From Actinospica robiniae DSM 44927 (GTDB lineage: Bacteria; Actinomycetota; Actinomycetes; Streptomycetales; Catenulisporaceae), in assembly GCF_000504285.1 (NCBI RefSeq), contig NZ_KI632511.1, forward strand, positions 6,988,154-7,052,153: DNA of 64,000 nt, given 5' to 3'. Below, piece by piece: positions 25,455 through 27,180 of the stretch; within the stretch, counting starts at the first letter, position 1; the number at the start of each line of letters is the position of its first letter. A program made the position numbers and the translations under genes. The notes beneath the pieces were generated by a model. That model did no database searches. It was given only the letters and a program-made list of their open reading frames with translations, and was not told where the DNA came from.

Positions 25455-25742
25455 ATGCGCTTGTCTCGCCGTGCCTCGTGGCTGCTGATCGCCTTCGCCG
25501 TCTGGTCGTGGATCATCTGGGTCACTCTGATCAAGAACATCAACAACGACCCGCGGGCGTGGAACGGCAACCACCCCACCGGCTTCCTGATGGTGCACGT
25601 CGTGCTGGCGATCATCTCGCTGGTCATGGGCACGGCGATCGGCTGGCTGGGCTGGAAGGGCCTGCGCGCGCTCAAGGCTCAGGACGGCAACGCGGTCGCG
25701 ACGCCGCAGCAGGCCGGCGAGCCCGACCGCGAGAAGGTCTGA
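25455..25742 (+). CDS. SCO4848-type small membrane protein
   Basis: 95 residues with two helices: RASWLLIAFAVWSWIIWVTLIKNI (about 6-29) and VHVVLAIISLVMGTAIGWLGW. The conserved FAVWSWIIWVT and GFLMVHVVLAI resemble the actinobacterial family named after S. coelicolor SCO4848, recalled from memory. The C-terminal tail is hydrophilic (QQAGEPDREKV). Function unknown. The inverted-repeat element begins 66 bases after the stop. Confidence 0.8.
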   Translation: MRLSRRASWLLIAFAVWSWIIWVTLIKNINNDPRAWNGNHPTGFLMVHVVLAIISLVMGTAIGWLGWKGLRALKAQDGNAVATPQQAGEPDREKV

Positions 25743-25807
25743 CTTCTCTGCCTCGACGAGGCGCCGCGGCGCGGGCCACGTGGGGGCTTGCCGGCGTGCG
25801 CTTCGCT

Positions 25808-25999
25808 TCGCCCTGGTTCGTGTGACCGCCCGCCCACCCGTTGCGTAGGTGGGTCGGCTGGGGTTTCAGGAAAAAGATCGCCTCCGGCGGGGGCCCTCGC
25901 TCGGAGAGTGCCGGAGGCTTACCGGCTGGGGTTCTGGGTGGTGGTGGGGTCGGGGCGGGTCTCTCTCCTCGCCCGGGCCCCGGAGGCAATCAGGAACCC
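25808..25999 (+). repeat. Left 192-bp inverted arm
   Basis: Matches the reverse complement of 26508-26699 at 191 of 192 positions. It contains an internal hairpin, GCCTCCGGC at 25880-25888 pairing with 25910-25918, and a homopurine/homopyrimidine-biased part (GGTGGTGGTGGGGTCGGGG). Confidence 0.95.
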
Positions 26000-26069
26000 G
26001 CCGGGAGGTCAAGCGGCGGTGGCTCCCGCCGTGCTGGTTTCTGCATCGCGCCGCTTGACCTCCCGGCGG
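25998..26069. repeat. 21-bp stem hairpin inserted in the left half
   Basis: 25998-26018 pairs perfectly with 26049-26069 (core CCGGGAGGTCAAGCGG), loop of 30 bases. This lies within a block of about 110 bases (26000-26108) that separates the two repeat modules in the left half but is missing from the right half. Confidence 0.85.
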
Positions 26070-26108
26070 CTTCCCGATCGGGCTTCGCCTGCCCGACCGA
26101 GGAGAGAG

Positions 26109-26154
26109 CCCCGCCCCTGGCGAGATCCCTGCGGGAGGTCGGTGGCCCGGTCCG
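26109..26154 (+). repeat. Inner 46-bp inverted arm, left copy
   Basis: Perfect reverse complement of 26465-26510. In the right half this module directly adjoins the 192-bp arm and shares three bases with it. Confidence 0.9.
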
Positions 26155-26246
26155 CTCCTGCCCGAACCCGATGCAGAATTCTTCAGCACATTCTCGCACC
26201 GGGTTGGGAGCCCTGTCGGATCGTGATGCCCGTTCGCTTCGCGGGG

Positions 26247-26287
26247 AAATCCTGCAGGCGGGGCTCCGCACATGTGATGCAGGATTT
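26247..26287 (+). terminator. Terminator-like hairpin with U tract
   Basis: AAATCCTGCA pairs with TGCAGGATTT over a 21-base loop that itself folds (GCGG/CCGC). On the plus strand it is followed by further T residues (five in a row), a classical intrinsic terminator layout that is rare in this GC-rich window. Confidence 0.5.
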
Positions 26288-26383
26288 TTCATAACCACTC
26301 CCATAAGGCTCCCGACACATCTCCATTCTACAGCGCGGCTCCGACAAAAGGAGTCTACGGGAACTCACGGGGATTATCGTGCG

Positions 26384-26412
26384 TTGAAATAGGTGGCAGA
26401 TGAGAGTTGAAT
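26384..26412 (+). promoter_or_regulatory. Candidate housekeeping promoter inside the element
   Basis: TTGAAA (26384-26389) and TTGAAT (26407-26412) with a 17-base spacer form a sigma-70-like promoter reading right. Transcription would start near 26420 at a GCGATTCG/CGAATCGC hairpin (26420-26427 with 26454-26461) and run into the right arm. Only a sequence match. Confidence 0.35.
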
Positions 26413-26464
26413 AGATCGCGCGATTCGCGCTAATGCAGAATACTGTATCGACTCGAATCGCTAC

Positions 26465-26510
26465 CGGACCGGGCCACCGACCTCCCGCAGGGATCTCGCC
26501 AGGGGCGGGG
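26465..26510 (-). repeat. Inner 46-bp inverted arm, right copy
   Basis: Reverse complement of 26109-26154 without mismatch; its last three bases overlap the start of the right 192-bp arm. Confidence 0.9.
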
Positions 26511-26699
26511 TTCCTGATTGCCTCCGGGGCCCGGGCGAGGAGAGAGACCCGCCCCGACCCCACCACCACCCAGAACCCCAGCCGGTAAGCCTCCGGCACT
26601 CTCCGAGCGAGGGCCCCCGCCGGAGGCGATCTTTTTCCTGAAACCCCAGCCGACCCACCTACGCAACGGGTGCGCGGGCGGTCACACGAACCAGGGCGA
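26508..26699 (-). repeat. Right 192-bp inverted arm
   Basis: Reverse complement of the left arm with one mismatch at 26673. It ends 31 bases before the stop of the minus-strand orphan gene. Confidence 0.95.
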
Positions 26700-26730
26700 C
26701 GCCCGGTACGCCTGAGTTCTGAGCTGTTCG

Positions 26731-27180
26731 TTATACATGGTCATCGGCGACCACCCACCAGCCGGGCTGATTCTCGCCTTGGGGCGGCTCGATGTCGTGT
26801 GCGGCGAGGTAGCAGTCCAACGTCGTCTTCCACTCGGGGTCGGTATCGCGCAACTTCGACAGTTCGATGGGGTTCCCGCGGCCGAAGTGGTCCGCCCACC
26901 AGGTTGGAGCGGCGGCGGCGCGCAGGTGCGGGCACACCACGTCGCCGTTATCGCTGCCGTGGTCTCCCATCAATGCGCCGATCGCGATCTCGGCCGCCAG
27001 TGTCTCTCTCCGCCCGTCATCGGACCGGAGTGAGTGAAGAGGCTTGCCGCACGCGGCGGCTACCAGCTGCTCAATCTGGTCGTCTTGCCACGTGAGTAAG
27101 GCGTAGAAGTCGTCCAGGGTGAACCCGAATTCTTCGGGCGAACTCCAGGAGTATTCGTAGAAGATCTCTGCTGTACCCAT
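26731..27180 (-). CDS. Orphan acidic cytosolic protein with a TTA codon
   Basis: 149 residues. The ATG at 27180 has a strong GGAGGGG ribosome site 6 bases upstream. The protein is acidic, Trp-rich (EWKTTLDC, TWWADHF, GWWVVADD) and lacks signal or membrane segments. Two Cys, no known motif recognised. Leu28 is encoded by TTA (27097-27099), the codon read by bldA tRNA in Streptomyces and often used in late or horizontally acquired genes. It adjoins the inverted-repeat element. Size and composition recall immunity-type proteins, but no toxin lies next to it, so that is only a thought. A longer frame upstream to 27678 lacks a supporting start. Confidence 0.75.
   Translation of the reverse strand: MGTAEIFYEYSWSSPEEFGFTLDDFYALLTWQDDQIEQLVAAACGKPLHSLRSDDGRRETLAAEIAIGALMGDHGSDNGDVVCPHLRAAAAPTWWADHFGRGNPIELSKLRDTDPEWKTTLDCYLAAHDIEPPQGENQPGWWVVADDHV

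Follow-up and report, generated by a model that had tools for sequence, protein, structure and literature searches.

Anatomy of the inverted-repeat locus

The locus lies in a 64,000-nucleotide stretch of Actinospica robiniae DNA, analysed as a whole (the window), between a 95-aa gene on the plus strand (25455–25742, ending in TGA) and a minus-strand gene whose 3′ end is at 26731. The 192-bp arms of the original prediction (25808–25999 and 26508–26699) do match at 191 of 192 positions, and they extend to 25805–25999 and 26508–26702, where 193 of 195 positions match (mismatches at 25807 and 25834). A second, inner pair of 49 nt (26106–26154 and 26465–26513, 98% identical) had been overlooked; with it, the true arms are 25805–26154 (left, plus strand) and 26465–26702 (right, minus strand). 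Segments 25805–25999 and 26106–26154 of the left arm pair with the right arm, and the intervening 26000–26105 is unpaired, its right-arm partner having been deleted. The right arm of this copy thus lacks approximately 106 bp present in the left, apparently lost between short CCCGCC repeats; the missing part is most of a hairpin that other copies carry in both arms. The folding z-score of the locus is −42.7.

As a consequence of this loss, the “508-bp centre” described originally resolves into a centre of approximately 310 bp (26155–26464) plus unpaired arm sequence. The low GC content noted for it is real (0.63 over the 508 bp and 0.548 in the inner centre, versus 0.712 for the window). The centre has no ORF of note, and tblastn searches of the window copy with DUF222-HNH proteins (see below) gave chance-level matches only. 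It does contain two copies (26170–26190 and 26276–26296) of an imperfect dyad motif, GATGCrGAAnnnTTCyGCATC, that recurs across a dispersed family of related elements.

Both outer ends of the window copy (approximately 65 bp) are unrecognisable. The anatomy of the family suggests that a decayed left outer end probably occupies 25743–25804, directly after the TGA of the 95-aa gene, and the family terminal motif is not recognisable there. On the right, 26703–26733 may be the decayed counterpart: read inwards it gives TATAACGAACAGCTCAG, which by eye bears a faint likeness to TA-AC-GCGA..TTGATGATCAGCTGAG. The feature is best read as an old, end-worn, non-autonomous copy of an Actinospica mobile element family.

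A dispersed family in the A. robiniae genome

With the window element as query, 195 matches were found in its own 9.92-Mb single-contig genome, so the arms are far from single-copy and the suggestion of a MITE-like dispersed element is borne out, as a non-autonomous family. The family terminal motif GCGAnTTGATGATCGGCTG occurs 169 times at ≤3 mismatches (14 for the control), and a 20-mer from the arm hairpin, of which a full copy has four sites, occurs 362 times at ≤1 mismatch. These pattern counts, together with scored matches, indicate a family of roughly 80–90 scattered copies. At nearly all of the 39 loci first examined a plus arm precedes a minus arm. One typical full copy measures 1456 bp (~1.45 kb) and has arms of ~490 bp, and other copies match it along their own length at 82–88%; the arms of the window copy are 73–80% identical to those of the family.

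Diverged relatives (71–79%) are present in both same-genus genomes, in neither of which the hairpin 20-mer has a match; they lie mostly at the ends of draft contigs, so copy number there is not assessable. Beyond the genus, the arm hairpin pattern had no exact match in a contig database, with single one-mismatch matches in three genomes of the order. Searches of plasmids with the element and of phages with its protein returned no match.

The dyad motif is found in the centres of family copies and also, as VKNPA/MKDPA-type codons, inside the HNH genes described below; a related form, TGCGAAATTTCGCA, occurs in the sister species A. acidithermotolerans. The motif could be a protein-binding site.

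Target site and evidence for movement

Upstream of the terminal motif the sequence follows the pattern YTA-NN, with T at 82 of 87 ends, A at 74 of 87, and a preceding Y (C or T) at 80 of 87. Reading inwards from either end gives the same pattern, so the target is YTAR and TA is duplicated. The absence of a clear target duplication, as originally noted, holds for the worn window copy and not for the family, which has TA on both sides. With flanking genes called by a simple custom codon model, the target TA falls within the stop codon (TAG/TAA) of an adjacent gene at 23 of 52 sites; 3′ ends make up 73 of the 103 gene ends next to the elements, and at 25 of 51 sites the neighbouring genes are convergent. 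The window contains only 27 YTAR sites, four of them within genes and three in stop codons, and this scarcity, combined with removal of harmful insertions, explains much of the bias towards 3′ ends.

Two copies, L070 and L071, share 99.3% identity across 1449 bp and sit in unrelated flanks, which is strong evidence that the family has moved by transposition. The ten differences between them all fall in the first 144 bp, a clustering that suggests a gene conversion tract between dispersed copies. At the orthologous site in A. acidithermotolerans, the distance from the 95-aa gene to sdhB is 0.5 kb, compared with 2.3 kb in the window; the site lacks the element together with two small genes, and so represents an absence rather than a clean empty site.

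The original prediction took the near identity of the arms to imply recent origin, gene conversion or selection, but near identity is not a property of the family: the two arms of a gene-less copy differ on average by 15%, the same as between copies (identity 0.850 within a copy; 0.846 between copies for the same side and 0.844 for opposite sides). The family arms act as a single pool, as expected from an amplified founder with equal arms, and arm homogenisation as a general rule was rejected on these values. The window copy is exceptional in combining 99% identity between its own arms with its divergence from other copies, for which arm-to-arm gene conversion is the likeliest origin. The gene-bearing copies L132, L138 and L139 have arm identities of 93–98%, two gene-bearing copies reaching 98%.

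A conserved hairpin in each arm

Each family arm contains a hairpin of ~165 bp, which in the left arm of the window copy occupies 25952–26117 (plus strand; DNA fold z = −10.4). Much of its stem is 97–99% conserved, compared with 81% for the loop and about 85–90% elsewhere. When 16 hairpins drawn from three genomes and several subfamilies were aligned, both sides had changed at 22 of the 58 pairs and pairing held in 92.4% of cells; covariation scored 0.256, versus 0.088 for shuffled and ≤0.053 for slid alignments. The covariation shows a maintained hairpin, although not necessarily an RNA, because templated copying between the stem strands could give the same changes; an Rfam search for known structured RNAs gave no match up to E = 1. 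The proposal of a structured RNA or DNA locus was in this sense partly right, in that a hairpin in each arm is conserved with compensatory changes. Hairpin identities correlate with those of the proteins encoded by gene-bearing copies (r = 0.79 over 21 non-independent pairs).

A hairpin in a genome of the same taxonomic family (L130, 2911–3076) has a similar outer stem (CTCTCCTCGGTCGG...) and a different inner stem; no arms or HNH gene were found around it.

Gene-bearing copies encode a DUF222-HNH protein

The original statement that there is no transposase and no convincing ORF is correct for the window copy and does not extend to the family, which has gene-bearing relatives with the same arms; the idea of a remnant of a larger mobile element has accordingly held up. 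The A. robiniae genome contains 13 loci encoding a protein with DUF222 and an HNH endonuclease motif, 12 of which are flanked on both sides by family arms and the remaining one on a single side; at two of the 13 the gene is interrupted, and some arms are split by insertion sequences (ISs). Gene-bearing copies of the main subfamily are ~2.6 kb long. In A. acidithermotolerans at least one DUF222 and HNH endonuclease gene likewise lies between arms, which are 88% identical (L123). In more than one subfamily no more than ~10 bp separate the end of the gene from the downstream arm, and the position of the gene between the arms is constant across subfamilies whose proteins share only 38–46% identity, implying that the association of gene and arms is old. 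Values of dN/dS between gene copies, where divergence suffices, are 0.15–0.36, indicating that the gene has been under purifying selection. Gene-less copies retain a stretch matching the gene leader at 71–73%, as expected for internal-deletion derivatives of gene-bearing copies. A lone perfect end motif at 1767929, considered as a candidate autonomous element, proved to be a truncated remnant.

Among solved structures the HNH motif is nearest to the HNH domains of IscB and Cas8f, over ~40 residues only. An AlphaFold model of the protein built from two sequences had a mean pLDDT of 45, too poor for use.

Of 80 actinobacterial genomes sampled, 32 contain DUF222, frequently at high copy number; it was found in none of 11 other genomes of the taxonomic family and order sampled with the genus. 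In 16 other actinobacterial genomes, 40 DUF222 loci were examined and none has inverted repeats around the gene; the same test detects the arms at once in L132, L138 and L139. On present evidence, the combination of arms and gene thus appears to be an arrangement specific to Actinospica, and the gene family itself is widespread.

Comparison with known systems

In kind, the window feature belongs with the non-autonomous inverted-repeat elements that duplicate TA. The family resembles MITEs and Correia/RUP-type elements in having many dispersed gene-less copies with terminal inverted repeats and a short TA target duplication (the ends and duplication being unrecognisable at the window copy), and in preferring gene ends and intergenic sites. 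As MITEs do with autonomous elements, gene-less copies share arms and gene leader with the gene-bearing copies, which are only presumed to be autonomous. MITEs are usually under ~600 bp, and the family differs from them and from Correia/RUP elements in being much longer, with its ~490-bp arms and inner hairpin, and in that its gene-bearing relatives encode an HNH nuclease rather than a DDE transposase. Correia/RUP-type elements duplicate TA and are mobilised by IS630-type transposases. Foldback elements and IS-derived long inverted repeats share the very long inverted arms and short centre; unlike foldback elements, the Actinospica family has a covarying conserved hairpin in each arm and an HNH endonuclease in its gene-bearing form. 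IscB and other HNH nucleases linked to IS200/IS605 share the nearest HNH motif and structured ends, whereas here no RuvC domain was matched, there is no TnpA partner, and TA is duplicated. A REP-type element, another of the early suggestions, was wrong on size, architecture and target: REP/RAYT systems consist of 20–40 nt palindromes with a Y1 (HUH) transposase, and the present family has a DUF222-HNH gene.

The REP13E12 loci of Mycobacterium tuberculosis, which are of the DUF222-HNH type, are the closest comparison for the gene. Like the gene-bearing copies (the window copy being gene-less), the “13E12 repeat family” combines DUF222 and HNH in one protein, and it shares genomic repetition and gene conversion between copies (PMC13061034). 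REP13E12 repeats are described as gene-conversion hotspots without a defined biological function (PMC13061034). A difference is that neither long inverted arms nor arm hairpins were seen at loci of this type elsewhere (0 of 40 across the 16 genomes, M. tuberculosis not being among them), whereas 12 of the 13 genes here are armed. In the literature searched, with most subscription papers outside its scope, we found no description of REP13E12/DUF222 copies bounded by inverted repeats, nor of a large gene-less REP13E12 family.

Proposed mechanism and alternative explanations

We consider it probable that the window copy belongs to an Actinospica mobile family that is mobilised by its DUF222-HNH nuclease, the gene-less copies being moved in trans. 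In the proposed mechanism, the protein would recognise the arm hairpin, the end sequence, or both, and cut the DNA there; the element would then be inserted at a YTAR site, duplicating the TA. Copies that had lost the gene and kept the arms would be moved in trans, giving rise to the ~1.45-kb majority, with the hairpin as the putative substrate of the HNH protein. Where the target TA lies in a stop codon (TAG or TAA), the stop would be restored by an element beginning with G or A, such that these insertions would leave the gene intact.

The stronger proposal, that DUF222-HNH is the mobilising enzyme of a new transposon class, hairpin-armed and TA-inserting and lacking any transposase of the DDE, HUH, tyrosine or serine type, is a tentative one, which we rate at somewhat below an even chance. 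Against the main reading given above, DUF222-HNH genes elsewhere have spread without arms, and here the gene may therefore be a passenger. The single locus among the 13 with only one detectable arm, and the window copy, with neither gene trace nor terminal motif, also count against that reading.

The main alternative, which we regard as unlikely though of real weight, is that the family is of MITE type and that a TA-specific DDE transposase (IS630/Tc1-mariner or IS5/IS427 type) moves it in trans, with DUF222-HNH as a passenger or a colonising homing endonuclease. TA duplication, found at the family ends, is the signature of IS630/Tc1-mariner elements, and mobile DNA is known to carry HNH nucleases as passengers, which favours this explanation, as do five PF13358 matches in the genome and the frequency with which ISs land in family elements. 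However, the gene-bearing copies hold DUF222-HNH between the family ends rather than a DDE transposase of their own, and among the end motifs listed no other sequence combining family ends with a transposase was found. The IS630 copies that could be read terminate in GTGCCGTATCAGGC, which differs from the family ends, and IS630 was rejected as mobilising partner on this ground. The constant position of the gene between the arms across highly diverged subfamilies is also unlike that of a chance passenger.

A dispersed structural element with a host function, either a bidirectional terminator between convergent genes or a chromosome-organising site, could account for the excess of 3′ and convergent flanks, the conserved hairpin and the repeated dyad motif in the centre. 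We think this very improbable: the location is largely explained by target scarcity and loss of harmful insertions, while precise TA flanks, near-identical copies at unrelated sites and gene-bearing versions fit mobile DNA, which also predicts the absence of the element from the orthologous site in the sister species. An assembly fold-back, suggested by arms that are 99% alike in the window copy against 85% in other gene-less copies, is scarcely credible given that these arms differ at two positions and by the ~106-bp deletion and that the same architecture recurs ~80–90 times, with many unrelated flanks, in one closed contig.

The DUF222 family is common in Actinobacteria, and in Actinospica its gene lies between defined ends, in a family that has moved and that has gene-less derivatives and a conserved hairpin. 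This arrangement makes the DUF222 family open to experiment as a mobile system whose candidate substrate and target are definite; should the HNH protein turn out to be what mobilises the element, it would represent a new class.

Insertion sequences and chromosomal distribution

Other ISs accumulate in family copies: 19 of the 45 DDE_Tnp_1 transposase genes sit within them (e.g. L036, L089, L058, L084 and L093), compared with ~0.6 expected by length. Two IS630-type copies with CTAG-flanked ends GTGCCGTATCAGGC were also located (L081, 7142–8374, and L082, 1731–2963), one of them inside a family copy. Along the chromosome, only approximately two copies were seen between ~4.97 and 7.01 Mb (at 5.34 and 6.44 Mb), and the remainder is densely populated.
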